Source of the DNA: a virus
DNA length: 40,498 nt
Direction: 5' to 3' (one strand)
IMG/VR virus record: IMGVR_UViG_3300037070_006168
Coordinates: 1-40,498 of that record
In this document: in pieces, positions 1,000 to 16,373 of the stretch
Layout of the letters: each line of letters starts with the position of its first letter
Position numbering within the stretch: position 1 is the first letter of the stretch
Notes under the pieces: generated by a model
What the model saw: only the letters and a program-made list of their open reading frames with translations
What the model was told of the DNA's origin: nothing
The model's database searches: none
Position numbers and translations under genes: made by a program

Positions 1000-1289
1000 C
1001 CGACCAGCGCCTACCGGAGCACGCCGTGGCGATTGTGGAGCTAGCCGAGGCGATCGCCGCCGAGCGCTCGCTGACGCTCGACGAAGCCGCCGCCGTGATC
1101 GAACGCACGAGCCGCAGCCTCGCCTCGAACCGAGCCGAGGCGGTAATACCCGCCGCGCCAGCGGTAATACCGATCATCCACACGCCGTGCCTGCGCTGTA
1201 AGGGGCCACGCGAGCACTACGGCATCGGCCGCTGCTACGCCTGCATGACGCCCGCCGAGCGCGACCGCTACGCGCATCAGACGACGTGA
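996..1289 (+). CDS. Small zinc-ribbon protein
   Basis: 97 aa. GTG 996 overlaps the terS stop as GTGA, and the end overlaps the terL start in the same way, so the three genes should be translationally coupled. The N-terminal 50 residues are helical. The C-terminal third holds CLRCK and, after 13 residues, CYAC, a four-cysteine zinc ribbon. The open frame extends upstream inside terS, but that part is a shadow; the GTG is chosen from the overlap. Function is unknown; the position between the terminase subunits hints at an accessory packaging or DNA-binding role, which is inference. Confidence 0.65.
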   Translation: MTDQRLPEHAVAIVELAEAIAAERSLTLDEAAAVIERTSRSLASNRAEAVIPAAPAVIPIIHTPCLRCKGPREHYGIGRCYACMTPAERDRYAHQTT

Positions 1290-2677
1290 CGATCCGCCGC
1301 GCGCCGGCGCAACTACCGCGCGAGGCGATCGTCACCCCCGCGACGTTCATGCTCGCCACGAGCCGCGACCGCTTCATCATCCCGCGACACATCGAGCTGA
1401 TCGAGGACGTAGTGCTGCGCGCGATCGCGGCCGGCGACCGGCTCATCACGATCGAGGCGCCCGTCAGGCACGGCAAGAGCTTCTACCTCGACTGGCACCT
1501 GCCCGCCTGGTACCTCGGCTCGTTCCCGCACAAGAACGTCGGCCTCGCGAGCTACGAGCACCGCTTCGCCGCCTCGTGGGGGCAGCGCGCGAGGGACACG
1601 CTCGACGAGTTCGGCCAGAACTTCGGCATCCTCCTCGACCCGCAGATCAGGAGCCGCGACTGGTGGCAGACGGAACGCGGCGGCGCGATGCGCTCGATGG
1701 GAGTCGGCGGCGCGATCACCGGCAAAGGCTTCGACCTGCTGATCATCGACGACCCGATCAAGAACGCCGCGCAAGCCAACAGCGCGGTCTACCGCGAGGC
1801 GCACTGGACATGGCTCCAGAGCACGGCCCTCACGCGCGTCGAGCCGGGCGGCATCGTGATCGTCACGATGGCGCGCTGGCACGAGGACGACCTCATCGGC
1901 CGCATCCATCAGGAGATGCCCGACGAGTGGACGAACCTGCGCCTACCGGCACTCGCCGAGCCCGACGACGCGATGGGCCGAGACGAAGGCGAGCCGCTCT
2001 GGCCCGAACGCTTCAGCGCCGAGAATCTCGAGCGACGCAAACGCAGAGTCGGATCGTTCTGGTTCAACGCGCTCTACCAGCAACGACCCTCCCCGCCATC
2101 GGGCCGCATCTTCCAGCGGCACTGGTGGCGACGCTACGCCGCGCTGCCCGACGAGTTCGACTCGGCCGCGTGGAGCTGGGACATGAGCTTCAAGGACGGC
2201 AAGGACTCGTCGTACGTCGTCGGTCAGTGCTGGGGAGTGCGCGGCGCGGACTACTACCTGCGCCACCAAGTCCGCGGACGGTGGGACTACCCGACGACGA
2301 AGGCAACGCTCCAAGCGCAGGTCGGCGACCCGCGATACGCCGACGCCGCGAACCTCGTCCTGATCGAGGACAAGGCGAACGGCCCAGCGATCATCGCCGA
2401 CCTGCAGCACGACATGAGCGGCCTGATCCCCGTCGCGACGGGCGCGGACTCGAAGATCGGCCGCGCGACCTCGGTGAGCGGCATCGTCGAGAGCGGCAAC
2501 GTGTACCTGCCCGAGCAGGCCGAGTGGGTTGACGACTACATCGAGGAGCACGCACAGTTCCCGTTCGCCGCGAACGACGACCAGGTGGACTCGACCAGTC
2601 AGCTCCTGCGCGAACTGAGCCGCCGGTCGGGCGCGAGCGTCTGGGCGCCGAGCGGCCGACTACCCGTCCGAGCCTAA
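1286..2677 (+). CDS. terL: Terminase large subunit (ATPase and nuclease)
   Basis: 463 aa, the normal size for siphoviral large terminases. The packaging ATPase has a Walker A-like P-loop (APVRHGKS, about residues 58-65), Walker B (LLIIDD, 151-156) and a coupling motif (TMARWHEDD, 194-202). The RNase H-like nuclease follows, with acidic residues at WDMSFKD (Asp299), LIEDKANG (Glu361/Asp362) and NDDQVDS (Asp431-Asp435), which are the expected metal ligands. The enzyme pumps DNA into the prohead and cuts concatemers. GTG 1286 overlaps the previous gene by 4 nt. Unusually, the portal gene is not next but lies 9.5 kb downstream, after the modification genes. Confidence 0.96.
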   Translation: MTIRRAPAQLPREAIVTPATFMLATSRDRFIIPRHIELIEDVVLRAIAAGDRLITIEAPVRHGKSFYLDWHLPAWYLGSFPHKNVGLASYEHRFAASWGQRARDTLDEFGQNFGILLDPQIRSRDWWQTERGGAMRSMGVGGAITGKGFDLLIIDDPIKNAAQANSAVYREAHWTWLQSTALTRVEPGGIVIVTMARWHEDDLIGRIHQEMPDEWTNLRLPALAEPDDAMGRDEGEPLWPERFSAENLERRKRRVGSFWFNALYQQRPSPPSGRIFQRHWWRRYAALPDEFDSAAWSWDMSFKDGKDSSYVVGQCWGVRGADYYLRHQVRGRWDYPTTKATLQAQVGDPRYADAANLVLIEDKANGPAIIADLQHDMSGLIPVATGADSKIGRATSVSGIVESGNVYLPEQAEWVDDYIEEHAQFPFAANDDQVDSTSQLLRELSRRSGASVWAPSGRLPVRA

Positions 2678-2686: not shown

Positions 2687-3190
2687 ATGAGAGTCCTGAG
2701 CCAAGAGTTCGACGAGGCCGTGCCGCTCGCGGACCTCACGCCGCACCCCATCAATCCGAACCACGGCGACGTAGGCGCGATCTACACGAGCATCGACGCG
2801 AACGGCTGGTACGGCGCCATCATCATCCAGAAGAACACCGGCATCATCTGCGCCGGTGAGCACCGAGTCGCCGCCGCGCGCGAGGCCGGCGCCGACGCCG
2901 TGCCCGCGATCATCGTGGACTGCGACGACGCGACCGCCCTACGCATCCTCTTGGCGGACAACCGCACGGCCGCGCTCGCCACGAACGACCTGCCGGCCCT
3001 CGCCGACGCGCTGGCCGTGATCGCCCGCGACGACTCGCTGCTCGGCACGGGGTACGACGCTGACGACCTCGACGCGATCACACGCGAAGCGAACAGCATG
3101 CTGCCTCCCCTGCCGCCCACCGAGGAGCATCTCGTGACCTGCCCGGAGTGCGGCGCGCGCTTCGCGACCGACGCGCGACCGGCGCGCTAG
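2687..3190 (+). CDS. ParB/Srx-fold protein with C-terminal zinc ribbon (copy A)
   Basis: 167 aa, preceded by a strong Shine-Dalgarno (AAGGAGG, 2676-2682) that overlaps the terL stop. The ParB-like core is clear: ADLTPHPINPN at the start, ICAGEHRVAA (GEHR about residues 57-60) as the nucleotide-binding motif, and LLADNRT (89-94). The C-terminus adds CPEC (152-155), half of a zinc ribbon. In phages such proteins are generally not partition factors; ParB/Srx domains recur beside DNA-modification genes and may bind or act on nucleotides. A related copy lies at 7436. The TAG stop is also the first half of a TAGACT hexamer. Confidence 0.8.
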   Translation: MRVLSQEFDEAVPLADLTPHPINPNHGDVGAIYTSIDANGWYGAIIIQKNTGIICAGEHRVAAAREAGADAVPAIIVDCDDATALRILLADNRTAALATNDLPALADALAVIARDDSLLGTGYDADDLDAITREANSMLPPLPPTEEHLVTCPECGARFATDARPAR

Positions 3191-3193
3191 ACT
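3188..3193 (+). promoter_or_regulatory. Possible -10 hexamer TAGACT overlapping a stop codon
   Basis: TAGACT fits the TAnnnT -10 pattern, lies 34 nt before the GTG of the FkbM gene, and belongs to a recurring GCTAGACTCGCG-like motif also seen at 11862, 16109 and 33136. No convincing -35 was found. Function is inferred from recurrence and position. Confidence 0.4.
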
Positions 3194-3227
3194 CGCGCCG
3201 ACGCGAACCAGCCACCGAGGGAGAGAC

Positions 3228-3863
3228 GTGACTACCAGCACCGAGCAATACGCCGACTTCTGGGCGCTCTGGAAGGGCGGCGAGTGGGAACGCGAGACGC
3301 GCGAATGGGTCGAGCGAGTCACGCGGCCCGGTGACCTGTTCGTAGACGTGGGCGCGTGGATCGGCCCGGTCACGCTGTGGGCGGTCGAGGCCGGCGCGTA
3401 CGTCATCGCGATCGAGCCCGACCGCGTAGCGTGCCGCGAGCTGCGCCGCGCGACCGAGCACGTCCCCGGCCGCGTCGAGGTCTGGGAAGGCGCGCTCGTC
3501 GCCGCCGCCGCCGAGGATCTGGTGATGCTCGCGCCGAACCCGAAGGCGGGCGGCGAATGGGGCGACTCGCAGAGCCTCATCGCGCCCGAGTTATCGACCG
3601 CGATCGAGGTACTCGGCTTCACGCTCGAAGCCGTCCTGCAAGGACGCACGCCGACGCAGCTCAAGATGGACGTGGAGGGTTACGAGGAGCGTCTCGCGCC
3701 GGCGATCCTGCCGTACCTCGCGAGCGTCGGCGCGTGGGTGCAGGTCAGTCTGCACGGCACGCCGCTGCCCGAGCAGACGGGCAAGTGGGCGTCGATGCGC
3801 TGGCAGCCCGACGAGCGTTGGGGCGACTGGCAGTTCGAGCCAGCGCGACGGCGGGCGACGTGA
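3228..3863 (+). CDS. FkbM-family SAM-dependent methyltransferase
   Basis: 211 aa. The SAM-binding motif I is LFVDVGAWIG (about 37-46), followed by the acidic loop AIEPD (61-65). The FkbM hallmark KMDVEGYE is at 146-153. FkbM enzymes are usually O-methyltransferases acting on sugars or polyketides. The motifs of DNA C5-methyltransferases (PCQ) and N-methyltransferases (DPPY) are absent, so it does not look like a base methyltransferase. With glycosyltransferases on the same operon, methylation of a sugar on modified DNA is a reasonable inference. The GTG start follows GAGGGAGAG. The stop overlaps the next GTG. Confidence 0.87.
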   Translation: MTTSTEQYADFWALWKGGEWERETREWVERVTRPGDLFVDVGAWIGPVTLWAVEAGAYVIAIEPDRVACRELRRATEHVPGRVEVWEGALVAAAAEDLVMLAPNPKAGGEWGDSQSLIAPELSTAIEVLGFTLEAVLQGRTPTQLKMDVEGYEERLAPAILPYLASVGAWVQVSLHGTPLPEQTGKWASMRWQPDERWGDWQFEPARRRAT

Positions 3864-4189
3864 CCGACGAGCGCGTGATGGACTACCGGCCCGACACGCC
3901 GACCGTATGCGAATGCGGCGCGGCCGTGCGCGTCACGGGCGAGCGACGCGGCGAGGTCTACCTGAGCGGCCCAGCCGACCTCGCGATGGCCGCCGAGTAC
4001 GGCATCACGACCGAGGGCAGAGCGGTCACGATCTGGCACGAGTACGTGTGCAGCAACGGGCACCACGGGCCGAGCCTGATGGGCGCCCAGACCGGCGACG
4101 CGATCCTCTACCACGACCCGCACCCGCCCAGCCACGCGCTCACGCGCGCGATCCGCGAGCACCCGACGCGCCGCACGAGGGACCCGTGA
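3860..4189 (+). CDS. Small zinc-binding-like hypothetical protein
   Basis: 109 aa. GTG 3860 overlaps the FkbM stop (GTGA) and the gene ends in another GTGA overlap with the glycosyltransferase. CECG near the N-terminus and CSNGHHG near residue 70 form a plausible Cys/His zinc site. No family was recognised. The open frame runs upstream inside the previous gene, but the coupled GTG is preferred. It is presumably part of the modification operon because it is translationally coupled on both sides. Confidence 0.6.
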   Translation: MTDERVMDYRPDTPTVCECGAAVRVTGERRGEVYLSGPADLAMAAEYGITTEGRAVTIWHEYVCSNGHHGPSLMGAQTGDAILYHDPHPPSHALTRAIREHPTRRTRDP

Positions 4190-4743
4190 CCGGCGTCACC
4201 GTCTGCACGCCGACGACCCTCGACCGCAAAGAAGTCCTGCGGGAATGCATCGAGAGCGTCGCGACGCAACGAGTCCTACCGACGCGGCACATCATCCTGC
4301 GCGACGCGAAGAACGCCGGCCCGAGCGTGATGCGGAACCTGATGCTGCGCATGACGAACACCGAACTCGTCGCGTTCCTCGACGACGACGACCTCATGCA
4401 CCCCGACCACCTCGAAGCGCTCACCGATGCGCTCAACGAGTCGAGCGCCGACCTCGCGACCTCGTGGTTCGATACCGTCGGCGCCGTGCCGCTCGTGCCG
4501 CGCTTCGACCAGTGGGACTCCGAGGCCGAGGCGTACATGGCGGCAGGCATGAACGTCGTGCCCGTGACCGTCGTCGCGCGGCTCGACTCGATCCTCGAAG
4601 CGGGCGGCTTCAACCCAGCCGACCGCTGGGAGGATTACGCGCTGTGGATGCGTATGCTCGCGCGCGGCGCGCGGTTCGTCGTCGTGCCGCGCGAGACGTG
4701 GACGTACCGGATGCTCGGAGGGAATAGGACATGGACTGGCTAG
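4186..4743 (+). CDS. Family 2 glycosyltransferase (GT-A)
   Basis: 185 aa from GTG 4186, which overlaps the upstream stop. The start is that of a GT2 enzyme (TVCTPTTLDRKEVLRECIES). The metal/nucleotide-sugar motif is AFLDDDDLMHP (Asp cluster about 66-69), and WEDYALWMRM (148-157) supplies the acidic catalytic-base motif. The usual glycine-rich nucleotide-binding half is short, so this is a compact GT2. It would transfer a sugar from an NDP- or UDP-sugar. The acceptor is unknown; the neighbouring TET, TAGT-like and PIG-L genes suggest a growing glycan on a modified base. Confidence 0.85.
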   Translation: MTGVTVCTPTTLDRKEVLRECIESVATQRVLPTRHIILRDAKNAGPSVMRNLMLRMTNTELVAFLDDDDLMHPDHLEALTDALNESSADLATSWFDTVGAVPLVPRFDQWDSEAEAYMAAGMNVVPVTVVARLDSILEAGGFNPADRWEDYALWMRMLARGARFVVVPRETWTYRMLGGNRTWTG

Positions 4744-4892
4744 CCCGCTCGGCATTCCGGCTCGCGTGGTGGCGAGGCGAGGATCACAACCGGCGCGTGA
4801 AGCTGTTGGAGTGGAGCTTCATGCACTGCGGCCGGCGCTGGCGCGCAGCGATCCTCAACTACGGCGACGAGCTGCGCCGGGCTCGGGCGTGA
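4731..4892 (+). CDS. Small basic hypothetical protein (53 aa)
   Basis: ATG 4731 lies inside the end of the GT2 gene, 13 nt overlapping, with GGAGGGAATAGGAC just upstream as a ribosome site. The stop at 4890-4892 overlaps the next GTG (GTGA). The product is rich in Arg and Trp, with one Cys. Without this gene there would be a gap in an otherwise fully overlapping operon, which is the main support. Function is unknown. Confidence 0.55.
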   Translation: MDWLARSAFRLAWWRGEDHNRRVKLLEWSFMHCGRRWRAAILNYGDELRRARA

Positions 4893-5632
4893 GGACGTTC
4901 GCGATCATCCCGGTGCGCGGCGAGTGGCGCCTGACCAGCCGCGCGCTCGGCTGCCTCGCGATGGAGCCTGTCGAGGACGTGCTCGTGCTCGACAACGGCT
5001 CGCCCGACGACACCGCCAGCCGCATACGATCGTTGCAGCGATACCGCGAGTGGAGCGGCCGGCTGCACCGCACAGACACGACCGGCTTGACGATCTACGA
5101 GGCGTGGAACCTCGGCTTCGCCCGCGCCAAGCAACTCGCGCGCCGCGGACCGTTCGAGGTGCTCGTGCTGAACAACGACGTAGAGCTGCCACGCGGCGCC
5201 GTCGGCCTGCTGCGCAACGCGCTGCTCTCGCAGCGGCACGAGCGCGTCTGGGTCACGTACCCGGACTACGACGCGGCGTGGATCGACGACGCGCGCGAGG
5301 CGTGGTGCGAGCTGCGCGCGACGCGCGGCGTGTTCGGCGACGGCGGCATGTTCGGCCCATGCTTCTGCCTCGCCGGCGACGCGATCCCCTGGACGCCGCT
5401 GATCACCGACCTCGCGTACGAATGGTGGTGGGGAGACAACCACCTCGCCGAGTGCGTCGCGCAGGAAGGCGGCACGCAGCTCCGCGTCGTCGGCCTGCCG
5501 GTACGGCACGAGGGCGAGGCGACCGCGAGGCACTACCCAGAACTCGACCGCGCGAAGCTGCGCGACCGGGGACGCTGGCTGACCAGAGAAGCGCGCGGCT
5601 CGCGCGCAATCAACCGAGGAGGCGCACCATGA
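4889..5632 (+). CDS. Family 2 glycosyltransferase (second)
   Basis: 247 aa from GTG 4889 (GTGA overlap). The N-terminal Rossmann half has FAIIPVRGEW and VLVLDNGSPDDT (about 31-42), the GT2 nucleotide-binding signature. VLVLNNDVELP (91-101) is the DxD-equivalent, here NND. The later WWWGDNHLAECV segment supplies acidic residues where the catalytic base is expected. It is closer to rhamnosyl/glycosyl transferases of the 'NGSxDxT' class than to the GT2 at 4186, so the two probably add different sugars. The acceptor is inferred from context only. Confidence 0.85.
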   Translation: MRTFAIIPVRGEWRLTSRALGCLAMEPVEDVLVLDNGSPDDTASRIRSLQRYREWSGRLHRTDTTGLTIYEAWNLGFARAKQLARRGPFEVLVLNNDVELPRGAVGLLRNALLSQRHERVWVTYPDYDAAWIDDAREAWCELRATRGVFGDGGMFGPCFCLAGDAIPWTPLITDLAYEWWWGDNHLAECVAQEGGTQLRVVGLPVRHEGEATARHYPELDRAKLRDRGRWLTREARGSRAINRGGAP

Positions 5633-6009
5633 CCCAGACGCTCACCTACACCGGGACGCTCGTCGTCACGCGCTGCTGGTGCGGCATCGGCCACGCGATC
5701 CCGACCGACCTCTACGACATGGCGAAGCGCCGCAAGGGCTTCAGCGTCTACTGCCCGCTCGGCCACGAATGGGTCATCCGCAGCGAGACGGAGGACAAGA
5801 AGGTCGAGCGGCTCGAAGGACGGCTGCGCGCGACGCGTGACCTGCTGCACGCCGAGGAGCGGTCGCACTCCGCGACGCGCGGCCACCTGACCCGACAGAA
5901 GCGCCGCGTCTCGGCCGGCGTCTGCCCGTGCTGCAACCGGACGTTCGCGAACCTCGCGCGGCACATGCACGGCCAGCACCCCTCGTACGCGCCGAGCGCC
6001 GACTCGTGA
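5629..6009 (+). CDS. Multi-zinc-finger protein with coiled coil
   Basis: 126 aa from ATG 5629, with GAGGAGG upstream. Three parts are visible: an N-terminal Cys/His site (CWCGIGH about 16-22, then CPLGH near 43-47); a helical, probably coiled-coil stretch rich in Glu/Arg (KKVERLEGRLRATRDLLHAEE); and a C-terminal finger, CPCCNRTFANLARHMHGQHP, which is a C2H2-like finger with an extra Cys. Such proteins are likely to bind nucleic acid. Its place between two glycosyltransferase genes could mean it targets or scaffolds the modifying enzymes; that is inference. Confidence 0.7.
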   Translation: MTQTLTYTGTLVVTRCWCGIGHAIPTDLYDMAKRRKGFSVYCPLGHEWVIRSETEDKKVERLEGRLRATRDLLHAEERSHSATRGHLTRQKRRVSAGVCPCCNRTFANLARHMHGQHPSYAPSADS

Positions 6010-6212
6010 GGCTTCACCGAGGGACGCCGCCCGAAACGATCGGCCACGTACCGCCCGGCGGGAAGCGCGAGCTGACGCTGCGCGTCGTCGGCGTCGGCGA
6101 GGACGCGCTCGGCCCGTACGTCACGATGCGCTGGGAAGAGCAGGAGCAGCAAGCCGATCTGCATATCGGCGACTGCATCGAGCTGAACCTCTACAACGAC
6201 AAGCCGGCATGA
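6006..6212 (+). CDS. Small hypothetical protein (68 aa)
   Basis: GTG 6006 overlaps the previous stop and the end overlaps the GT4 start at 6209. The product is predicted mostly beta (ELTLRVVGVGEDALGPYVTMRW), with an acidic C-terminal half. No family was recognised. Coding is supported by the double 4-nt overlap and the lack of alternatives. Confidence 0.55.
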   Translation: MRLHRGTPPETIGHVPPGGKRELTLRVVGVGEDALGPYVTMRWEEQEQQADLHIGDCIELNLYNDKPA

Positions 6213-7246
6213 TCGTCGGCGCGTACGTGCGCCGAGCGGCGCCCGACCACCCAGCCGGCGCCGAGTGGGCCATGCACGACCTGCTCGCCGCGCTCGCCGA
6301 CCGAGGACACACCGTGCAGCTCGTCGCCGAGAAGGGCCACACACGCTCCCGCTCGATCGACGGCGTGGGCGTCTACTCGCAGGCGACGCCGGAAGAGGTC
6401 GTCGCGCACTTCATCGACTGCGACGTGATGCTGACACAGCTCGAAGCGATCGCTGCCGCGATGGTGCTCGCCTCGGCGTACAGCACGCCGCTCGTGCACC
6501 TCATCCACTCGCCGTCGCAGGTCGAGGACTTCGGCGTGCTGCCCGGCGCGGCGGCGCTCGTCGCGTTCAACACGCACGACGCGGCCGGCGCGAACGAGTG
6601 GTGGCCGGGCGACCGGCTCGTCCTGCACCCCGTCGTGCGCGCGGAGCGGTACGTCGTCGAGCCGAAGGGGCAGATGGCGACGCTCGTCGGCCTGAGTCAC
6701 GAGAAGGGAGCGATGCGTCTCGTGCGTCTCGCGGAAGCGCTGCCGGGCCGGCACTTCCTCGGCGTCAACAACGCTTACGGCGATCAGGCCATCACCGTCG
6801 CCGGCATCCCCGGGCACGGCGACAACCCGGCGCCCGCCGGCCTGCCGCCGAACCTCGGCATCGGCGGCGTCACGACCGACATGCGCGGCATCTACGCCGC
6901 GACGCGCGTGCTGCTGATGCTCGGCGCGAGCGAGACGTACGGCCGCGTCGCCGACGAGGCGATGCTCTCGGGCATCCCCGTCATCGCGTTCCCCACGCCG
7001 GGCATCGTCGAGTGCTGCGGCTCGGCAGCGCGGTACGCCGAGCCGCACCAGCCGAAGGCGCTCGAAGCGCTCACGCTGCTCGCGTGGACGCCGGCGTGGG
7101 ACGAGTGGAGCGCCGCCGCCCGAGCCCGAGCCGCCGCGAACCGCGACCGCTCGCGCGGCGAGGTCGAGGAGTTCGAGCACACCCTGCAACGCATAGTCAA
7201 CGACCCACCGGAGATGACGATGACCCTGGAACCCCACCATGCCTGA
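6209..7246 (+). CDS. GT-B glycosyltransferase (GT4-like)
   Basis: 345 aa from ATG 6209. The N-terminal domain has the acceptor-side GT4 pattern (GAEWAMHDLLAALADRGHTV). The C-terminal domain carries SETYGRVADEAMLSGIPVIAF, with the retaining GT4 EX7E pair at about Glu242 and Glu250, followed by the PTPGIVE loop that binds the donor nucleotide. The family transfers sugars with retention of configuration. It is soluble, with no membrane segment. Together with the GT2 enzymes and the deacetylase it would allow an oligosaccharide to be built. It could instead glycosylate a virion protein. Confidence 0.88.
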   Translation: MIVGAYVRRAAPDHPAGAEWAMHDLLAALADRGHTVQLVAEKGHTRSRSIDGVGVYSQATPEEVVAHFIDCDVMLTQLEAIAAAMVLASAYSTPLVHLIHSPSQVEDFGVLPGAAALVAFNTHDAAGANEWWPGDRLVLHPVVRAERYVVEPKGQMATLVGLSHEKGAMRLVRLAEALPGRHFLGVNNAYGDQAITVAGIPGHGDNPAPAGLPPNLGIGGVTTDMRGIYAATRVLLMLGASETYGRVADEAMLSGIPVIAFPTPGIVECCGSAARYAEPHQPKALEALTLLAWTPAWDEWSAAARARAAANRDRSRGEVEEFEHTLQRIVNDPPEMTMTLEPHHA

Positions 7247-7439
7247 CAACTACGCCGAGTTCGACTTCCTCGTGACGGATCGGCCGGTCGCGGCGATGAC
7301 GTGCCTGCGCTGCGGCGTGGCGATCATCCTGCGAGAAAGCGTCGATGCCGTCGCGATCCACGACCGCTGGCACGCGCGAAGCGGCGAGCACGAGCAGCTC
7401 TGGCGCTCGCCGACCTGGCAGGAGGCGACGCGGCGATGA
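7239..7439 (+). CDS. Small CxxC...HxxWH zinc-binding protein
   Basis: 66 aa from ATG 7239, overlapping the end of the GT4 gene by 8 nt. CLRCG (about 22-26) and HDRWH (about 41-45) form a probable Cys2His2 zinc site. Short proteins with this layout are common in actinobacteriophage genomes but have no known function. The stop overlaps the ATG of the second ParB-like gene. Confidence 0.65.
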   Translation: MPDNYAEFDFLVTDRPVAAMTCLRCGVAIILRESVDAVAIHDRWHARSGEHEQLWRSPTWQEATRR

Positions 7440-8113
7440 CTCAGTCCGCCGCCACCCGCCGCGCGAAGGCGAGCATCGCCGAGCCGATCCGCCGCCTCGC
7501 CGCGCCCGTCGAGTCCCTCACGCTGCACCCGAAGAACCCGAGGCACGGCGTCGTGCCGAAGATCGCCGCGAGCCTCACCCGCTTCGGCCAAGTCAAGCCC
7601 ATCGTCGCGCAAGCCTCCACCGGCCACATCGTCGCCGGCAACCACACGTACCGCGCGGCGCTCTCGCTCGACTGGCCGCTGATCGCCGTCGTGCGCGTCG
7701 AGATGACCGACGAAGACGCCGAGGCGTACATGGTCGCGGACAACCGCACCAGCGACGTAGCGACGAACGACGACGCGGCGCTGCTCGCGATCCTCGAAAC
7801 GATGAGCGACACCGGGCAACTCGCCGGCACCGGCTTCGAGCCCGACGACGTAGAAGACCTACGCGCCGCGCTCGACGCGATCCACGAGACGACGCCCGAG
7901 GACTTTCAGGGCGGCTACAGCGAGCCGCCTGAGGACGCCCTCAACCGGCAACGCACCCCACCCGAAGCCTTGAAGGAGGTCGTGATGCTGCTCAGGCCGA
8001 GCGAGGCCGAGGTGTTCGCGAAGCACATGGACGCGCTGCGCGCCGCGTGGGGCATCAGCGGCGTCACCCAAACCGTCCTACGCGCCGCCGCCGAGTGCGC
8101 GAAGCAGCTATGA
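7436..8113 (+). CDS. ParB/Srx-fold protein (copy B)
   Basis: 225 aa from ATG 7436 (ATGA overlap). The ParB-like core is recognisable: VESLTLHPKNPRHG, GHIVAGNHTYRAA (about 63-75) and MVADNRTSDVATNDD (99-113). The usual arginine after the GxH motif is Thr (GNHT), unlike the GEHR of copy A at 2687. The C-terminal 80 residues form a separate helical part that includes VVMLLRPSEAEVF. The DNRT and ATND motifs are shared by both copies, so they are probably paralogues that diverged. A role in DNA modification is suggested by neighbours only. Confidence 0.8.
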   Translation: MTQSAATRRAKASIAEPIRRLAAPVESLTLHPKNPRHGVVPKIAASLTRFGQVKPIVAQASTGHIVAGNHTYRAALSLDWPLIAVVRVEMTDEDAEAYMVADNRTSDVATNDDAALLAILETMSDTGQLAGTGFEPDDVEDLRAALDAIHETTPEDFQGGYSEPPEDALNRQRTPPEALKEVVMLLRPSEAEVFAKHMDALRAAWGISGVTQTVLRAAAECAKQL

Positions 8114-8859
8114 GCGAATACGCGATCGCTGTGCGGTCGTACCGCCGCGCATCGTTGTGCGCGGCCAAGACGTGGGCGATGCTCACGAGGTACGGCGTCG
8201 CCGACCGCGCCTCGATCTTTCTGAGCGACCCCGAGGAGACCAACGAGTACCGCGCAGCGGTTGGTCCTAACCCGGCGATCATCGCCGGCGCGTTCGGCTG
8301 CGGCGCGAACGGCAACGCTGCGATCCGGTATTACCCCGAGGGTACGCGCCTCATCGTGATCGACGACGACCTGACGGACATGCTTATCCGCACCGGCCCT
8401 CAAACGCTGGAGCCCGTCGGCGCTGTGGGCTGGGACGAACTCGCCGAGGTCGGGTTCCTCGCCGCCGGCGACGGCTTGTGGGGAGTCCACCCGGTCGCCA
8501 ACGCCTTCTTTCACAGGCATCAGGTGAGCGCCGACCTGCGCCTAATCAGCGGAGGGTTCTTCGGCCTCACGACGCGCCGCGACCCGGGCCTGGACGTGAC
8601 GGTTGAGGAGAAGGAGGACTACGAGCGCACGCTCCGATGGTTCCGTGCCGACGGCCGAGTGACGCGCCTCAACTGGTATGCCATGCGAACCAAGACGTAC
8701 GCGGGAGCGGGCGGCATGCGCGAGGCGCGCACAGTCGAGCGGGTCGAGCGGGACGTTGCGCGGCTGCTGGCCGACTGGCCGCGGCACGTCGAGCTGAAGA
8801 AGCCGAAGGCGACGCGAGCGTTCCCCGAGATACGCCTCAGACGAACGGCGGCGCCTTGA
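8110..8859 (+). CDS. TET-associated glycosyltransferase-like protein (TAGT-like)
   Basis: 249 aa from ATG 8110 (ATGA overlap). It begins like a compact GT-A enzyme (AIAVRSYRRASLC), with IFLSDPEE and the DxD motif LIVIDDDL (about 81-88). Later conserved-looking blocks are WGVHPV (124-129), LISGGFFG (145-152), EKEDYERTLRWF (167-178) and WYAMRTKTY (189-197). This layout matches what I recall of the TAGT family described beside phage TET/JBP dioxygenases, proposed to glycosylate hydroxymethylated bases. A TET gene lies 1.8 kb downstream. It is the best candidate for adding the first sugar to 5hmC. The family call is from memory of motifs and should be confirmed. Confidence 0.75.
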   Translation: MSEYAIAVRSYRRASLCAAKTWAMLTRYGVADRASIFLSDPEETNEYRAAVGPNPAIIAGAFGCGANGNAAIRYYPEGTRLIVIDDDLTDMLIRTGPQTLEPVGAVGWDELAEVGFLAAGDGLWGVHPVANAFFHRHQVSADLRLISGGFFGLTTRRDPGLDVTVEEKEDYERTLRWFRADGRVTRLNWYAMRTKTYAGAGGMREARTVERVERDVARLLADWPRHVELKKPKATRAFPEIRLRRTAAP

Positions 8860-9629
8860 CGGTCGTGCTGTCGCCTCACTGCGATGACGCCGTGCTCTCG
8901 ACGTTCGGCGCGATCCTCGACGGAGCGAGCGTCGTCACGATCTTCGCCGGCGAGCCGTGGGCCGAGGCGACGCTCGAAGCGTGGGATCGCTGCTGCGGCT
9001 TCGCTGACCCGAGCGCCGCGATGCGCGCACGCTGGGTCGAGGACGACGCGGCGCTTACCGGCGTCGAGCACTCGCGGCTCGACCTGCTCGAAGAGCCGTA
9101 CCGGCCCGATCTGCCGCGCGCCGCGATCACCGACCGGCTAGTAGAGCTCCTCGCACCGCTCCTAGCTGGCGAGACGATTGTCTACGCGCCGGTGAGCGTC
9201 GCGCCTCGACCCCACCCCGACCATCTCCTCACGCTGGAAGCGGCCTGGGCGCTACGCGAGTCGTACGACGAGCTGCGGCTGTACGGCTGCATGCCGCACA
9301 TCCTGCGCGGCGAAGGCGTGTGGCCCGCCGCGATCAAGCGCGGCGTCACGAGCGCGCCGGCGTACTGGTGGCGCTGCCTCGACGAGCGACCGATCACGAG
9401 CCGCTGGCCGAAACTCAGATGCCTCACGCGGCCCGAGGCCGAGGCGAAAGCGGAGCGCACGCGCTTGTACCGCTCGCAGTTCCGCGGACTCACGACCGCG
9501 CTGCGCATGCCCGCCCGCTCAGTGCTGAAGAACCCGAGCGCGTACAGCATCGAGGCATGGTGGCCCGGAAAACGAGCGAGGGGATCGCCGGTAGCGATCC
9601 CCTCGCGTCCCCCGAGTTCCCCGAGTTGA
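8856..9629 (+). CDS. PIG-L family (GlcNAc) deacetylase
   Basis: 257 aa from TTG 8856, which overlaps the previous stop as TTGA; GTG 8865 is a possible alternative. The zinc/catalytic motif SPHCDDAVLS (His8, Asp10, Asp11) is the PIG-L/LmbE signature, and RPHPDH (His123) supplies the third ligand. The family removes the acetyl group from N-acetylglucosamine-type sugars, as in GPI and mycothiol synthesis. Here it could expose a free amine on a sugar attached to DNA. The last 20 codons run through the hairpin at 9576-9606, so the C-terminus (PSRPPSSPS) overlaps the terminator. Confidence 0.88.
   Translation: MTVVLSPHCDDAVLSTFGAILDGASVVTIFAGEPWAEATLEAWDRCCGFADPSAAMRARWVEDDAALTGVEHSRLDLLEEPYRPDLPRAAITDRLVELLAPLLAGETIVYAPVSVAPRPHPDHLLTLEAAWALRESYDELRLYGCMPHILRGEGVWPAAIKRGVTSAPAYWWRCLDERPITSRWPKLRCLTRPEAEAKAERTRLYRSQFRGLTTALRMPARSVLKNPSAYSIEAWWPGKRARGSPVAIPSRPPSSPS
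9576..9606. terminator. Perfect 13-bp hairpin between convergent genes
   Basis: GCGAGGGGATCGC (9576-9588) pairs exactly with GCGATCCCCTCGC (9594-9606) around a 5-nt loop. It sits just inside the 3' end of the PIG-L gene, 26 nt before the end of the opposing gene at 9632. No U-tract follows, as often in GC-rich genomes. A bidirectional terminator is the likely role. Confidence 0.7.
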
Positions 9630-9631
9630 GT

Positions 9632-9991
9632 CTACGGCTGCACCAGGGCGAACGTCGGGTCTCCCTCGATGATGGCCACAACGTCGCCGGCGACGGGCAG
9701 GCGCGGCAGCAGGTCGTCTGCGACCTCTATCGCGCGCTGAGCGGCGAGCGCGAACGACGCGATCACGTCGGCGAGACTCTGATAGTCCTTCGTGCCTTTC
9801 CCGGCTTCGCGCACGATGCGAGGCGAGCGCGAGATGAAACGGAACCCGCCCGGGAATGTCTCGTCGCGCTGAATGTAGAACTGAGGCCCGGTCATCTTGA
9901 CCGAGCCGTGGCCGCGCGCCGGGTGAATCGCGTACAGGCGATCCTCGTTGGCGACGCGCTGCACGCTGTTCTTGCCGTGACCGGATTTCAT
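9632..9991 (-). CDS. Hypothetical protein, minus strand (119 aa)
   Basis: The start is chosen at the ATG complementary to 9989-9991 because GAAGGAGAG lies just upstream on the minus strand; a longer frame begins at 10033. The product starts basic (MKSGHGKNSVQRV), has a beta-rich middle (MTGPQFYIQRDETFPGGFRFISRS) and a helical region (LADVIASFALAAQRAIEVADDLLP). No family was recognised. It follows the gene at 10091-10537 on the same strand and probably shares its promoter. Confidence 0.65.
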   Translation of the reverse strand: MKSGHGKNSVQRVANEDRLYAIHPARGHGSVKMTGPQFYIQRDETFPGGFRFISRSPRIVREAGKGTKDYQSLADVIASFALAAQRAIEVADDLLPRLPVAGDVVAIIEGDPTFALVQP

Positions 9992-10039
9992 GGTTGCTCT
10001 CCTTCTGGTAGTTGGGTGGGGTCGGTATGACACCGGCAG

Positions 10040-10065
10040 GCCCGCTCGACCGAGGCCGAGCGGGC
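10040..10065 (-). terminator. Hairpin between two minus-strand genes
   Basis: GCCCGCTCG (10040-10048) pairs with CGAGCGGGC (10057-10065), a 9-bp stem with an 8-nt loop, 26 nt downstream of the minus-strand gene ending at 10091. It may partly terminate transcription before the gene at 9632-9991. Confidence 0.45.
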
Positions 10066-10090
10066 AGCCGCTATCAGGCGACCGCGCGAC

Positions 10091-10537
10091 CTACTTGGTG
10101 CGGTCGTAGTGCCCGTTGAGCGCGTTGTGGAGGGCGCCGAGAGCTTTCGCGAAGTCGCCGTCGTCGGCCGCAGCGACGATCGACGCGACGAGCGCGCGCG
10201 CCTCGCCGGTCGCGAGACTCGCGATGAAGCGGGAGCGCCGGCTTCCGGGCTCGACATTCCGCGCGAGGCCGGCCTGGAACGCGGCGAGCAGCGTCCACTC
10301 GCCCTTCGGCGCCTTGACGGGCGCCGGCGTCGCGGCCGGCGTCTCGATCATGCCCGAGGTCGCCGCCGAGGCGGGCGCCTCGGCCTCGGCCTTGCGCTCG
10401 GCGCGCTCGATGCGCGCGTTGCGCTGAACCTTGGCGGCGGCGATCGCCTCTTCCTCGCTGTAGCTCGCCTTGACCTGGTACGTCTCGCCGTCGAGCTTGA
10501 TGTTCCGGCGAGCCTCGCGCTTGGTGGTGGTAGCCAT
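10091..10537 (-). CDS. Hypothetical protein, minus strand (148 aa)
   Basis: ATG is complementary to 10535-10537, with GAGGAG upstream on that strand. The N-terminal 55 residues are highly charged (TTKREARRNIKLDGETYQV, then a Glu/Lys/Arg-rich helix), followed by an Ala/Pro-rich linker (about 57-78) and a helical C-terminal domain (ALVASIVAAADDGDFAKALGALHNALNGH). Such a charged arm-linker-helix layout could suit a DNA- or capsid-associated protein, but no family was recognised. A shared 24-bp element lies 40 nt upstream. Confidence 0.65.
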   Translation of the reverse strand: MATTTKREARRNIKLDGETYQVKASYSEEEAIAAAKVQRNARIERAERKAEAEAPASAATSGMIETPAATPAPVKAPKGEWTLLAAFQAGLARNVEPGSRRSRFIASLATGEARALVASIVAAADDGDFAKALGALHNALNGHYDRTK

Positions 10538-10576
10538 GATCGTCGTGCTCCTCTGGTAGAAGGGCGTGCCTGTCAG

Positions 10577-10600
10577 CGCTAGCCTAGCGCGTTTCCCGCG
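10577..10600 (-). promoter_or_regulatory. Minus-strand promoter-like element (copy 1 of 2)
   Basis: On the minus strand this reads CGCGGGAAACGCGC then TAGGCTAGCG. The hexamer TAGGCT fits TAnnnT. The same 24 bp, with two changes, occurs at 18409-18432, again just upstream of a minus-strand operon. It lies 40 nt before the start at 10537. Confidence 0.55.
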
Positions 10601-10619
10601 TCGCCGTCGAAGAGGCCGC

Positions 10620-10625
10620 TAGAGT
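10620..10625 (+). promoter_or_regulatory. -10-like hexamer for leaderless TET gene
   Basis: TAGAGT is followed by exactly 7 nt and then the GTG start at 10633. There is no Shine-Dalgarno, so transcription would begin at or next to the start codon. No -35 was found at normal spacing. Confidence 0.45.
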
Positions 10626-10632
10626 TCGCGGC

Positions 10633-11556
10633 GTGATCGAGATGCGCCTGAGGTCGAAGGTGAGCAAGGAGGAACTCGACGGGAAAGTGGGGCGCGTGCT
10701 GACGCGCGACGATTACAACGTGCTCCTGACCGGCCCGGCGCGCGTACACAAGCCCGACGGGTCGCTGCTATGCGTCTACCTGCCGCGCTCGATCGTCGGC
10801 ATGACGACCTATCACGCGGTGCTGTCGAAGATCCGTCTCGACGGGTCGAACCGAGGCGCGGCGAGCGGCTCGAAGCGCGTCCTCACGAGCATGCAACGCT
10901 CCAAGGGGAAGAAGATCACGAGCGGCATCCTGGGCGCGTTCGACCCGATGGGAGCCGAGCAGTTCTGCCGCCTCACGGCCTACACCGCGCAGCACCCAGA
11001 GGTCTGGGAGAGCATGTGGCCGCTGTTCGTCGAGATAGGCGCGCGCTTCGCCGAGCAGGTACCCGAGCGTTACGCGGCGCAGGTCGAGTACGCCGCGCGC
11101 ACGCACGAGGACTGGCTCATCCCCGGCACGCCGTTCACGACCATCACGATCAACAACACGTACCCCACCGGCGTGCACAAGGATCAGGGCGACCTCGACG
11201 CCGGCTTCTCGTGCATCGCGGTCGCTCGTCGAGGCGAGTACCGAGGCGGCGTGCTCGTCTACCCCGAGTACCGCCTCGGGATCGACACGCAGCAAGGCGA
11301 CCTCGTGCTCATGGACGCGCACGAGTGGCACGGCAACACGTGGATGACGTGCGCTGATTGCGGCGAGCGGCTCGGCCTGCCCGGGCATCGCTGCGCCGGA
11401 GCGGCCGAGTCGCCCGAGCGCGTCTCGGTCGTCGCGTACTACCGCACGAAGATGGTCGAGTGCGCGAGCCTCGACGACGAGAATCAGCGTCGCCTCGCGC
11501 TCAGCGAGCGCCGCAACGCGAAGCGCCTCGCCGCGAGAGTCGAGGCCGAGACGTGA
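10633..11556 (+). CDS. TET/JBP-family 2-oxoglutarate/Fe(II) dioxygenase
   Basis: 307 aa from GTG 10633 (ATG 10642 is an alternative). The double-stranded beta-helix core carries FTTITINNTYPTGVHKDQGD, with the iron ligands His182 and Asp184 (HxD). It continues with YRGGVLVYPEYRLGIDTQQGD, the distal His in DAHEWHGN (His233 or His230), and Arg263/Arg271 in the ERVSVVAYYR segment as candidate 2-oxoglutarate ligands. This matches TET/JBP enzymes, which hydroxylate 5-methylpyrimidines in DNA. Between the distal His and the Arg lies CADC plus HRC (Cys240, Cys243, His252, Cys254), a possible zinc-knuckle insertion. The N-terminal 160 residues are a separate helical part. It is expected to make 5hmC in phage DNA. 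Confidence 0.88.
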   Translation: MIEMRLRSKVSKEELDGKVGRVLTRDDYNVLLTGPARVHKPDGSLLCVYLPRSIVGMTTYHAVLSKIRLDGSNRGAASGSKRVLTSMQRSKGKKITSGILGAFDPMGAEQFCRLTAYTAQHPEVWESMWPLFVEIGARFAEQVPERYAAQVEYAARTHEDWLIPGTPFTTITINNTYPTGVHKDQGDLDAGFSCIAVARRGEYRGGVLVYPEYRLGIDTQQGDLVLMDAHEWHGNTWMTCADCGERLGLPGHRCAGAAESPERVSVVAYYRTKMVECASLDDENQRRLALSERRNAKRLAARVEAET

Positions 11557-11864
11557 CCCTCGTGAACCTCATCGTCCTCGCGCTCGCCGTGTACCGCGTC
11601 GCGCGGTTCGTCGGCTGGGATCAGATCACGCAACGGTTCCGCGAGAAGCACACTGGGTGGAGCGACGACCAGCACCGCAACGAGTGGCCGCACAATCGCA
11701 AACGCATCGCGGAGATGATCCACTGCCCGTTCTGCTTCTCACTCTGGGTCGCGATCGGCGTGTGGGTCGCGTTTCGCGAGTGGCCGCACGCCGTGCTGCT
11801 CGTCGCGTGGCCGCTCGCGATCGGCGCCGCCGCCGGCCTCGTCGCCAAGAACCTGGATGCGTAG
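11553..11864 (+). CDS. DUF1360-like small membrane protein
   Basis: 103 aa from GTG 11553 (GTGA overlap with the TET gene). There is one hydrophobic segment at the N-terminus (LVNLIVLALAVYRVARFVG) and a second in the C-terminal half (FSLWVAIGVWVAF, HAVLLVAWPLAIGAAAGLVA), with the signature IHCPFCFSLW between. The Cys-Pro-x-Cys followed by a tryptophan-rich helix is typical of DUF1360 proteins, which occur in phages and sporulating bacteria with no known role. The stop TAG forms part of a TAGACT hexamer. Confidence 0.7.
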   Translation: MTLVNLIVLALAVYRVARFVGWDQITQRFREKHTGWSDDQHRNEWPHNRKRIAEMIHCPFCFSLWVAIGVWVAFREWPHAVLLVAWPLAIGAAAGLVAKNLDA

Positions 11865-12142: not shown

Positions 12143-13951
12143 ATGGCGCGGTGGTGGGACGTGTTCCGCGCCGGCGGCGTCGGCGTCGCCACGGCGCCCG
12201 GCGCCTCAAGCCCGCGCTCGAAAGAGAACGAGCCGGGCAGCTCGCTGCAGGACTGGCAGCGACGCGCCTGGGAGTTCTACGACCAGCTCGGCGAGATTCA
12301 CTACGCCGGCAGTTTCTACGCCCGCATGCTGAGTGGCATCACGCTCGTCGTCGAGGAGCTCGGCCCGCCGCCGCCGGACGCGGAAGGCGAGGTCGGCGCG
12401 GACGAGTGGCAGGAGTCCACGAGCGAGGAGCTGCTGGCGCTGCCCGAGCGGCTCGCGAACACGCGCGGCGGACTCGCGGCGCTGCAGGCCGACTACGGCC
12501 GCTTGCAGTTCATCCAAGGCGAGGCGCAGCTCGCGCGGTCGCTCGTCCCGCCCGACGAAGGCTCGGGCGGCGAGGTCATGATCGACTCGAACGGTGACGA
12601 GTACGTCGAGACGTGGGAGATGCTCAGCGTCGAAGAGCTGTCGTACGACAAGAGCGCGAAGGAGTACAAGCGGCGACGCGGCCACAAGCTCAGCGCTGAC
12701 GAGGTGATCCGCGAGACGAACCCTGACGACCCGCTCGTCGGCACGATGATGGCGTGGCGGTTCTACCACCGCGACCCGCGTCACAGCGGCATGGCGGACT
12801 CGTCGATGCGCGCCGTGCTGAGCGACTGCGAAGAGCTGGTGCTGCTCAAGACCGCGATCCGCAACACGGCGCGGAACAGGGGAGCGGGGAACGGCATCCT
12901 GTTCCTGCCGTCGAGTCTCGGCGGGAACGAGGTCACGCTCGGCGACGGCACGAAGATACCGAAGAACGCGCAGGTGATCTACGAGTCGCTCACGGAGCCG
13001 ATCGGCGACGAGCAAGCCGCGTCGGCCGTCACGCCCGTGATCATCTTCGCGCCGCCCGACACGACCGCGAGCACCGCGTTCCACGTAGACCTGCGCGGCG
13101 CCGCCTTGTACCGCGAAACCGGGCTACGCGACGAGTGCATCCGGCGTATCGCGATCGGCCTCGACATGCCGCCCGAGGACCTGCTCGGCGTCGCGAACGC
13201 GAATCACTGGACGGCGTGGCAGATCGACGAAGCGAAGTGGACGAGTCACGGCGCGCCGGTCGCCGCCGAGTACGTCGAGCAGCTCACAGAAGCGCTGCTC
13301 GCGCCTCTCGCGCGCGAGCTGGGCCTCGACCCTCGCCGCGTGCGGTTCTGGTACGACGCGGCTGCCGTCGTGCAGGACCCCGACCGCGCCAGGGCGGCGA
13401 AGGAGGCGCACTCGAACCTGACGATCAGCGACGCGGCGTACCGCGAGGCGACGGGTTGGGCCGAGGACGACGCGCCCGACGAAGCCGAGTACGAGAAGCG
13501 CGCGAAGATGAAGAGCAGCGCGCCGGCCGAGGCGCCGCCGCCGACCGCCGAGCCCGGCGCGGCCGTCGCGAGCGCGGAGCACGTCATCGGACTCGCCGAG
13601 GCGTGCGTGCTGCGCTGCCGCGAGCTAGCCGGCTCGAAGCTGCGCACGAAGATGCAGCGCGCCGACGCGCCACCGAACCTGCGCGCGCGTATCTCGACGG
13701 CGCAGAACGTCGAGGTCGCGCACCGCCTCGCGGTCGAGCTGCGCGGCTCGCTCGACTCGGACAGTCTCGTGGCCGGCGCCGGGCAGGTGTTCCTCAGCGC
13801 GATGATCCGCATGGGCCTCGAACCGTCGATGGCCGAACGGCTCGTCAGGGTCACGGAGGAGCACGCCGCGTTGACGCTGTTCGACGACGAGCCCGGCCCG
13901 CTACCCGACGAGGCGTTGGCGATATGCGGCCTGCTCTCACGCCGAGCGTAG
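12143..13951 (+). CDS. Portal protein
   Basis: 602 aa from ATG 12143. It has the layout of siphoviral portals: an N-terminal arm, the wing (EFYDQLGEIHYAGSFYARML), and a stem region with the signature CIRRIAIGLDMPPEDLLGVAN followed by NHWTAWQIDEAKW. That last motif is typical of portals in actinobacteriophages. The C-terminal 140 residues include a Pro/Ala-rich linker (PAEAPPPTAEPGA) and a helical crown-like part. The dodecameric portal forms the DNA channel and docks the terminase. The last 28 nt overlap the next gene in another frame. Confidence 0.92.
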   Translation: MARWWDVFRAGGVGVATAPGASSPRSKENEPGSSLQDWQRRAWEFYDQLGEIHYAGSFYARMLSGITLVVEELGPPPPDAEGEVGADEWQESTSEELLALPERLANTRGGLAALQADYGRLQFIQGEAQLARSLVPPDEGSGGEVMIDSNGDEYVETWEMLSVEELSYDKSAKEYKRRRGHKLSADEVIRETNPDDPLVGTMMAWRFYHRDPRHSGMADSSMRAVLSDCEELVLLKTAIRNTARNRGAGNGILFLPSSLGGNEVTLGDGTKIPKNAQVIYESLTEPIGDEQAASAVTPVIIFAPPDTTASTAFHVDLRGAALYRETGLRDECIRRIAIGLDMPPEDLLGVANANHWTAWQIDEAKWTSHGAPVAAEYVEQLTEALLAPLARELGLDPRRVRFWYDAAAVVQDPDRARAAKEAHSNLTISDAAYREATGWAEDDAPDEAEYEKRAKMKSSAPAEAPPPTAEPGAAVASAEHVIGLAEACVLRCRELAGSKLRTKMQRADAPPNLRARISTAQNVEVAHRLAVELRGSLDSDSLVAGAGQVFLSAMIRMGLEPSMAERLVRVTEEHAALTLFDDEPGPLPDEALAICGLLSRRA

Positions 13952-16304: not shown

Positions 16305-16373
16305 ATGGGGCGAGGCGCGGCGATGACGAGCACCGTGCACTGCGCTTCTCGCCGGCCTCGCCTCTCGCCGTGA
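16305..16373 (+). CDS. Possible 22-residue leader ORF
   Basis: TAGCCT at 16293-16298 is followed by 6 nt and ATG 16305. The frame ends in a TGA that overlaps the GTG start of the glycosyltransferase (GTGA, 16370). It would place a coupled ribosome at that GTG, which lacks a Shine-Dalgarno. The peptide is basic and has no recognisable features. The evidence is positional only. Confidence 0.25.
   Translation: MGRGAAMTSTVHCASRRPRLSP

Follow-up and report, generated by a model that had tools for sequence, protein, structure and literature searches.

A four-gene core that lies between the terminase and portal genes of this phage, comprising a ParB/Srx-fold protein, a TAGT glycosyltransferase and a PIG-L-like deacetylase (7436-9629) together with a TET/JBP dioxygenase (10633-11556), would by our estimate have an even chance of directing a post-replicative, base-J-type modification of DNA, with thymine as the most likely base. 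The ParB-TET-TAGT-PIG-L module is in itself already known, and the 40,498-nucleotide stretch analysed here (the window) is a new and elaborate variant of it, with additional glycosyltransferases (GTs) and an FkbM-like methyltransferase. Gene identities were taken from Pfam and PHROG profile scans with curated Pfam cutoffs, and these recovered the gene set that the initial annotation had placed between the terminase and portal genes:

1286..2677, + strand: terminase large subunit, the left boundary (PF03237 47.8 bits, PF17289 38.5 bits)
2687..3190, + strand: ParB/Srx-fold protein 1 (PF02195 27.9 bits; phrog_723 7e-32)
3228..3863, + strand: FkbM-like methyltransferase, marginal (PF05050 22.8 bits, cutoff 22.7; phrog_8156 1e-6)
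4186..4743, + strand: GT2 glycosyltransferase a, FLDDDD motif (PF00535 44.5 bits)
4889..5632, + strand: GT2-like glycosyltransferase b, with NND as its DXD-like motif (PF00535 24.2 bits, cutoff 23.3)
5638..6009, + strand: small Cys-rich protein, start approximate (phrog_33336 6e-23)
6209..7246, + strand: GT4-like glycosyltransferase (PF13692 30.8 bits, cutoff 27; phrog_26352 1e-46)
7436..8113, + strand: ParB/Srx-fold protein 2, part of the core module (phrog_723 7e-34)
8110..8859, + strand: TAGT glycosyltransferase (PF20691 27.0 bits, cutoff 27.5; phrog_842 1e-11)
8856..9629, + strand: PIG-L-like N-deacetylase, HCDD and HPDH motifs (PF02585 19.8 bits, cutoff 28.2)
about 9632-9991 and 10091-10537, - strand: two ORFs without a known domain (ORFs only)
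10633..11556, + strand: TET/JBP 2OG-Fe(II) dioxygenase (PF12851 67.6 bits, cutoff 34.9)
11553..11864, + strand: DUF1360 protein, a conserved neighbour (PF07098 54.9 bits)
12143..13951, + strand: portal protein, the right boundary (phrog_776 268 bits)

The two GT2 genes and the GT4 gene score over their Pfam cutoffs as annotated, both ParB/Srx-fold proteins are clear members of phrog_723 (38% identical to one another over 119 aa), and the FkbM call holds by the narrowest of margins, with a SAM motif of DVGAWIG. Neither the FkbM-like protein nor GT2b had any match in the phage collection, and no Pfam family scored above cutoff for the small Cys-rich protein. The TET-TAGT-GT cluster is not a single operon, because the two minus-strand ORFs stand between the PIG-L and TET genes. 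The DUF1360 gene that follows the TET gene was found in 21 surveyed loci, the window counted.

The product at 10633 matches the TET/JBP profile well over its cutoff, and on the basis of its residues and its modelled fold is predicted to be an active TET/JBP dioxygenase. The iron triad (H182, D184 and H233) and the 2OG-binding R263 are invariant in the alignment, and the AlphaFold model (pLDDT 91.5) adopts a double-stranded beta-helix for which Foldseek returned NgTet1 (4lt5, the best match), CcTet, TET2 and CMD1 as the top matches. The closest solved structures are thus all 5mC oxidases, which counts against thymine as the substrate; among the Foldseek matches there was no structure of a thymine-oxidising JBP dioxygenase. 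A single-sequence search of the PDB returned nothing for the TET, and a profile comparison with TET2 reached only E=0.18 and was used solely for residue equivalence. By that equivalence the base-side residues D187, Y269 and R271 can be placed in part: D187 aligns with TET2 N1387 and corresponds to NgTet1 Asp234 and CMD1 Asp350, which touch N4 of 5mC, and R271 aligns with TET2 H1904 and corresponds to CcTet Arg393, which touches O2 of 5mC (PMC11040006). The oxygenase domain is the sole Pfam match in the 307-aa protein, with neither the J-binding domain of JBP1 nor the SNF2 domain of JBP2. The PHROG that it matches, phrog_6059, bears the label 'queuine tRNA-ribosyltransferase'.

The TAGT and PIG-L assignments stand on motifs and relatives, as both products fall below their Pfam cutoffs, the former only just. 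The TAGT has an invariant DDD at residues 85-87 (of the GT-A DXD type), is linked to the TET, belongs with phrog_842 (beta-glucosyl-HMC-alpha-glucosyltransferase) and is 36% identical (E=1e-35) to gp3 of mycobacteriophage Acadian, which itself scores 131 bits to the TAGT profile. The PIG-L-like protein keeps both metal motifs (HCDD at residue 8 and HPDH at residue 120), and the start codon of its gene and the stop codon of the TAGT gene overlap. Its relatives include proteins in locus L044, Acadian gp4 and Klevey gp69, in each case with a TAGT, and relatives at the equivalent place score 42-54 bits to PF02585. Among solved structures its closest relative is a glycopeptide N-acyl-glucosamine deacetylase, the teicoplanin pseudoaglycone deacetylase Orf2 (phmmer 5e-4); the predicted model, built from a two-row alignment, has a pLDDT of 50. 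More broadly, PIG-L occurs in 11 of 110 TAGT loci, frequently overlapping the TAGT stop, versus none of 45 loci that carry only a putative 5hmU kinase or amino acid:DNA transferase (ADDT).

The linkage of TET, TAGT and ParB is more than chance: a TET lies no more than 300 bp away in 72 of the 79 loci retrieved by TAGT similarity alone, and a ParB is found within 6 kb of the TET in 71 of 79 and in 63 of 73 loci. What accompanies the TET follows one of two routes. Among 58 loci with window-like TETs, 20 have only a TAGT, 34 have only the kinase (PF18751) or ADDT (PF18724), one has both and three have neither; the wider TET tree shows 17 or more switches between these routes. The 6 kb on either side of the window TET contain no kinase or ADDT. 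The sister mycobacteriophages Acadian and Stinger have TETs that are 67% identical, followed by TAGT and PIG-L in Acadian versus a kinase in Stinger, and Microbacterium phage Kozie has the order TET-ADDT-FAD oxidase-kinase. A prophage of Haloechinothrix alba carries ParB-TAGT-TET, its TET being 49% identical to that of the window. Such kinases and transferases work on 5hmU in phages M6, ViI and W-14 (PMC6449724), and the ParB, TET-like, aGPT-Pplase2 and kinase genes of Rhodococcus phage Tonitrus have been published as candidates for thymidine hypermodification (PMC11955845). PHROGs, for its part, groups the PF18751 kinases together with terminase small subunits.

The initial annotation had taken cytosine as the modified base, an assignment that comparison with the relatives does not support. 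No C5-methyltransferase (PF00145) is present in the window record or in a contig, 99.99% identical to it, that reaches 6.4 kb further, nor in nine of ten named phage genomes with related TETs, nor anywhere in the 4.7-Mb genome of the lysogen host H. alba. It occurs in one of 50 contigs with window-like TETs, there more than 40 kb from the TET, and in three of 50 contigs found by TAGT. The contrast is with the clade of the Melnitz TET, in which 49 of 50 contigs carry it and which is separated from the window-like TETs with a support of 0.997. As TAGT alternates with the kinase and ADDT, which constitute a known 5hmU route, and a C5-methyltransferase is missing, a base-J-like pathway from thymine through 5hmU to a glycosylated base is favoured over cytosine, and judged from the genes is the more likely of the two. 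Three further candidates were considered and set aside: the 6.4-kb extension, as a place for an upstream methyltransferase, holds small recombination- or nuclease-like genes and none of that kind; a thymidylate-synthase-type hydroxymethylase, as a general source of the hydroxymethyl group, occurs in only one of 41 records (that of Cr30); and the 'DNA methyltransferase' beside the TAGT of phage P12024L is of the N6/N4 type (PF01555).

It could nevertheless be that the host of the phage supplies 5mC, or that a methyltransferase lies beyond the recovered sequence, which is possibly a partial genome, such that the TET would oxidise 5mC to 5hmC ahead of glycosylation, extension, deacetylation and O-methylation. 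Phage TETs that oxidise 5mC were reportedly described by Burke in 2021, which we count in favour of this scheme, as we do the closeness of the TET fold to the 5mC oxidases and the D187 and R271 equivalents, which contact 5mC in NgTet1, CMD1 and CcTet; the T6-type TAGT, moreover, acts on glucosyl-5hmC (PMC13216743). D187 and R271 do fit 5mC readers, yet the methyltransferase-partnered phage clade has D or G at the R271 position. Set against the 49 of 50 methyltransferases in that clade, their near-complete lack in the phage, its relatives and the lysogen host, together with relatives whose TETs appear to feed the 5hmU kinase/ADDT route, leads us to regard the scheme as unlikely, though deserving of serious consideration.

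Known systems bear on both the chemistry and the claim of novelty. The initial annotation had presented the deacetylase and O-methyltransferase as additions peculiar to this phage; ParB-TET-TAGT-PIG-L is in fact already found in Acadian, Klevey and Prairie, and ParB-TET-FkbM in Pelagibacter phage HTVC112P. Acadian genes 1-4 (ParB, TET/JBP, TAGT and PIG-L) resemble the window in all four enzyme types, in adjoining the terminase and in the overlap of PIG-L start and TAGT stop, although the Acadian TET is only 25% identical and has N/V/L on the base side where the window has D/N/R; no GT2, GT4 or FkbM gene was found adjoining the Acadian module. Arthrobacter phages Klevey and Prairie likewise encode ParB, TET ('oxidoreductase'), TAGT ('glycosyltransferase') and PIG-L ('glucosaminyl deacetylase') with the same TAGT-PIG-L order, but their module lies in the right arm, away from the terminase, and lacks the extra GTs and FkbM. 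The T6 TAGT is of the same family as the window enzyme, but the glucose that it attaches to alpha-glucosyl-5hmC is the second (PMC13216743), whereas the window TAGT would be the first transferase. Kinetoplastid base J shares with the window the pairing of a TET/JBP dioxygenase (the thymine hydroxylases JBP1/2) with a glucosyltransferase, the latter predicted in the same computational screen (Iyer 2013) and, according to PMC10057400, acting on 5hmU in dsDNA; it differs in being eukaryotic, and the window TET lacks the J-binding and SNF2 domains while the window adds a deacetylase and extra GTs. Thymidine hypermodification as in M6, ViI, W-14 and Tonitrus is related in that its kinase and ADDT adjoin TETs akin to that of the window; here, however, those enzymes are missing from the vicinity, and 5hmU would come from the TET rather than from a thymidylate-synthase homologue. 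TETs of the Melnitz type share the TET/JBP fold and HxD...H...R site, and differ in their adjacent C5-methyltransferase, their residue at the R271 position and their separate clade. Burke et al. are said to have characterised these methyltransferase-partnered TETs in 2021. Phage TET/JBP enzymes may form two classes by base, one partnered with C5-methyltransferases and acting on 5mC, the other ParB-associated, much used and hydroxylating thymine in DNA to 5hmU, which would then branch to sugars (TAGT, PIG-L) or to the kinase and amino-acid route; we hold this as a conjecture whose chances fall a shade short of even. With the same reserve, the sugar branch would be a phage 'base J' that carries an amino sugar, of which the window would be the most elaborate case among those surveyed.

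Whether the whole interval serves DNA is a separate matter. The GT2-GT2-GT4 block is separable, since the trio is kept without a TET in a sister phage (G154) that is collinear with the window (terminase and portal 60% identical; ParB, compared with ParB 1, and GT2a 56%, GT2b 47% and GT4 45%). In its 43.5 kb G154 has no TET, PIG-L or window-type TAGT. Among annotated phage proteins the best relative of the GT4 is TurkishDelight gp20, encoded between the capsid genes and the tail genes of a genome with no TET, and the window itself has a further glucosyltransferase-like gene amid its head genes (at 16370). A search of viral contigs by peptide patterns had found GT4 relatives only in the same phage, and G154 was found later by way of GT2a. 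Actinobacteriophages, according to PMC12363180 citing Freeman 2023, use their own GTs on capsid and tail proteins. The trio may thus glycosylate virions instead of DNA, and the interval may combine two functions, with ParB2-TAGT-PIG-L-TET acting on DNA and GT2-GT2-GT4 (with FkbM) acting on virion proteins or another target. The trio of G154 still co-occurs, however, with a DNA-type glycosyltransferase, a strong TAGT (132 bits) that adjoins its ParB; a TET could sit outside the G154 contig; and GT2a homologues also occur at the TET-bearing loci L163 and L258. We consider this division of labour, which fits either base, a good possibility that is somewhat less than even. Far more improbable is that the cluster is decayed or repurposed, its enzymes kept for another process such as surface glycan chemistry with no modification of DNA: the marginal PIG-L and FkbM scores and the queuine label of the TET-matched PHROG would agree with it, but the catalytic residues of TET, TAGT and PIG-L are all intact and the TET-TAGT-ParB linkage is strong and conserved in many phages.

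The intact motifs, the TET fold and the conserved linkage bear out the proposal that TET and TAGT, with the deacetylase, form a base-oxidation and glycosylation module. Under the favoured thymine pathway, the TET/JBP enzyme would act on a pyrimidine, most likely thymine, after its incorporation into the phage DNA, hydroxylating the 5-methyl group to give 5-hydroxymethyluracil, and the TAGT would then move a sugar onto the hydroxymethyl group. Were that sugar an N-acetylhexosamine, PIG-L would strip its N-acetyl group, so that the DNA would bear a free amine; the GT2, GT2, GT4 and FkbM enzymes may lengthen and O-methylate the glycan, or have another target. DNA so modified would presumably be shielded from host nucleases.

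The cultured relatives Acadian, Stinger, Klevey and Kozie provide material for the question of the base, and the exchange of TAGT for kinase in sister phages is a natural comparison. If the base is cytosine, the product would be an elaborate glycosylated 5hmC bearing an amino sugar. If it is thymine, a base-J-like chemistry would exist in phages, carried out by the enzyme family that trypanosomes use for it, and thymine hydroxylases would be available from phage TETs.

Profile searches located each enzyme class named in the initial annotation at its proposed place, and the product encoded from 10633, whose score against TET_JBP is far over the cutoff, is indeed a TET/JBP protein; its predicted structure (pLDDT 91.5) matches NgTet1, CcTet, TET2 and CMD1, and its iron and 2-oxoglutarate residues are invariant. 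FkbM is over its cutoff by 0.1 bit. The TAGT is 0.5 bits short of its family cutoff and shares 36% identity (E=1e-35) with gp3 of mycobacteriophage Acadian, a 131-bit TAGT. PIG-L is under its family cutoff with both metal motifs retained, and among solved proteins it comes closest to Orf2, the teicoplanin pseudoaglycone N-acyl-glucosamine deacetylase, which deacetylates a sugar on a large aglycone. The window is the entire IMG/VR record of 40,498 bases, in which no exact end repeat was found; a second record, 99.99% identical, adds 6.4 kb to its left.

Features bounding, interrupting or accompanying the cluster
Left boundary of the cluster: terminase large subunit
Right boundary of the cluster: portal (phrog_776, 268 bits)
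9632-10537 (-): two ORFs (119 and 148 aa) that break the cluster between PIG-L and TET, with no known domain in either
11350-11394 (+): Cys-rich insert in TET (residues 240-254, CADCGERLGLPGHRC), lying past the distal His and ahead of the 2OG-binding Arg
11553-11864 (+): DUF1360 protein, recurring near TET loci, ahead of the portal, in 21 surveyed loci, and present in the TET-less sister phage
16370-17074 (+): further glucosyltransferase-like gene (phrog_854, 63 bits), between MuF-like and major head genes

The alignment consensus of window-like TETs holds CxCG...CxxCG at the site of the insert, a possible zinc knuckle.

Among 79 viral contigs found by TAGT similarity alone, 73 carried a TET (≤300 bp away in 72), and ParB lay ≤6 kb from TET in 71/79 and 63/73 loci. 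The deacetylase had been considered newly added; however, some cultured phages already carry the full core of ParB-TET-TAGT-PIG-L, namely Acadian (genes 1-4) and, among Arthrobacter phages, Klevey and Prairie, and the window cluster is a more elaborate variant of this known ParB-TET-TAGT(-PIG-L) kind. Acadian gp4 (L006:2438-3025) carries the label hypothetical but scores 42 bits and is a PIG-L deacetylase, and a metagenomic locus (L044) carries ParB-TAGT-TET-x-PIG-L upstream of terminase. PIG-L occurs in 11 of 110 TAGT loci, several of them near-duplicate phages, versus none of 45 loci carrying instead the P-loop kinase/amino acid:DNA transferase (kinase/ADDT) set, and its start and the TAGT stop share bases in the window as well as in Acadian and Klevey. 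This co-occurrence and overlap support TAGT and PIG-L as a functional pair, in which TAGT would transfer an N-acetylated sugar and PIG-L would then expose the amine.

A system that oxidises 5mC requires 5mC. A PF00145 C5-methyltransferase was found neither in the window nor in the 6.4-kb extension, and of 10 named phages whose genomes carry TET relatives, 9 likewise had none. The family was present in 1 of the 50 contigs with the most window-like TETs (>40 kb from TET) and matched in 3 of 50 TAGT-found contigs (one under the family cutoff), whereas the same search detected it in 49 of 50 contigs with Melnitz-type TETs, a separate phage clade (support 0.997), despite those contigs being mostly shorter. 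As contigs of one clade do not count as independent observations, Fisher values overstate the significance, and it is the clade-versus-clade contrast that carries weight. The lysogen Haloechinothrix alba (ParB-TAGT-TET; TET 49% identical to that of the window) gave no PF00145 match in its 4.7-Mb draft genome; the genome of a second lysogen, Actinomadura rayongensis, does contain such a match. Thymidylate-synthase homologues were missing from 40 of 41 records, which rules out this family as a general nucleotide-level source of the hydroxymethyl base.

Neighbours clustered around 58 window-like TETs (loci with each)
ParB: 51
P-loop kinase PF18751: 35
Amino acid:DNA transferase PF18724: 31
TAGT: 21
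FAD-type enzymes: 13
PLP-type enzymes: 13

Kinase/ADDT and TAGT alternate in these loci (kinase/ADDT only, 34; TAGT only, 20; both, 1; neither, 3), with at least 17 switches on the wider TET tree (shuffled mean 34). Exceptions, in which TAGT plus kinase or ADDT lie near TET, make up 8 of the 182 loci used for the tree (e.g. L037). The sister phages Acadian and Stinger have TETs that are 67% identical, followed by TAGT-PIG-L in Acadian and by the kinase in Stinger, and Microbacterium phage Kozie has the order TET-ADDT-FAD oxidase-kinase. Mycobacteriophage genes that follow ParB-TET and are called "terminase small subunit" or "adenylate kinase" (L275:776-2376 and many others) are PF18751 P-loop kinases (Stinger gp3, 239 bits), and the adjacent TETs carry the label 'queuine tRNA-ribosyltransferase'; both labels are likely misannotations. 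Kinases and transferases of this type use 5hmU in the DNA of phages M6, ViI and W-14 (PMC6449724). For Rhodococcus phage Tonitrus, a gene set of ParB, TET-like, aGPT-Pplase2 and 5-hmU kinase has already been described in print as possibly serving thymidine hypermodification (PMC11955845). The trypanosome base-J glucosyltransferase acts upon 5hmU in duplex DNA (PMC10057400) and, as relayed there, its prediction came from the same computational screen (Iyer 2013). The simplest reading of these gene neighbourhoods is one shared intermediate, with TET converting thymine to 5hmU, which would then take one of two alternative finishing routes, TAGT or kinase/ADDT.

The sister phage G154 (L266, IMGVR_UViG_3300045284_000156) is collinear with the window (terminase and portal 60% identical) and has counterparts of GT2a (56%), GT2b (47%), GT4 (45%), one ParB and DUF1360, together with a strong TAGT of its own (132 bits) beside ParB. 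PIG-L and the window-type TAGT are missing from it; it has a TAGT yet no TET within 43.5 kb that would account for its hydroxymethyl base. Because the glycosyltransferase trio occurs there without TET, PIG-L or the window-type TAGT, the interval comprises two separable blocks, GT2-GT2-GT4, common to the sister, and ParB2-TAGT-PIG-L-TET, found of the two only in the window. The best annotated GT4 relative is TurkishDelight gp20, encoded in a TET-less genome with capsid genes on one side and tail genes on the other, a setting that would be expected of a virion-glycosylation gene, and actinobacteriophages glycosylate capsid and tail proteins (PMC12363180). GT2a homologues also occur on the TET-bearing loci L163 and L258, so such enzymes may have a DNA role. 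The gene at 16370-17074, 62% identical in G154 and with no Pfam match, possibly serves virion glycosylation. FkbM adjoins TET in HTVC112P and turns up at 4 of 110 TAGT loci, the window's own phage accounting for two of these. The long multi-sugar chain of the initial annotation is hypothetical.

Aligned by profile to TET2, window residues D187 and R271 correspond to N1387 and H1904, and both are invariant in the window clade. Asp at the first position touches N4 of 5mC in NgTet1 and CMD1, and Arg at the second touches O2 in CcTet (PMC11040006), such that the pocket could be able to read 5mC. In the methyltransferase-partnered phage clade the first position is D and the second D or G; that clade differs from the window clade at the second position, and the residues therefore do not settle the base. 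The initial annotation had proposed cytosine, a choice left unsupported by the near absence of PF00145 and by the pairing of the relatives' TETs with 5hmU-route enzymes. We regard thymine as having about an even chance of being the modified base and cytosine as rather unlikely. The finding is of most use in exposing a testable split of phage TETs by base.
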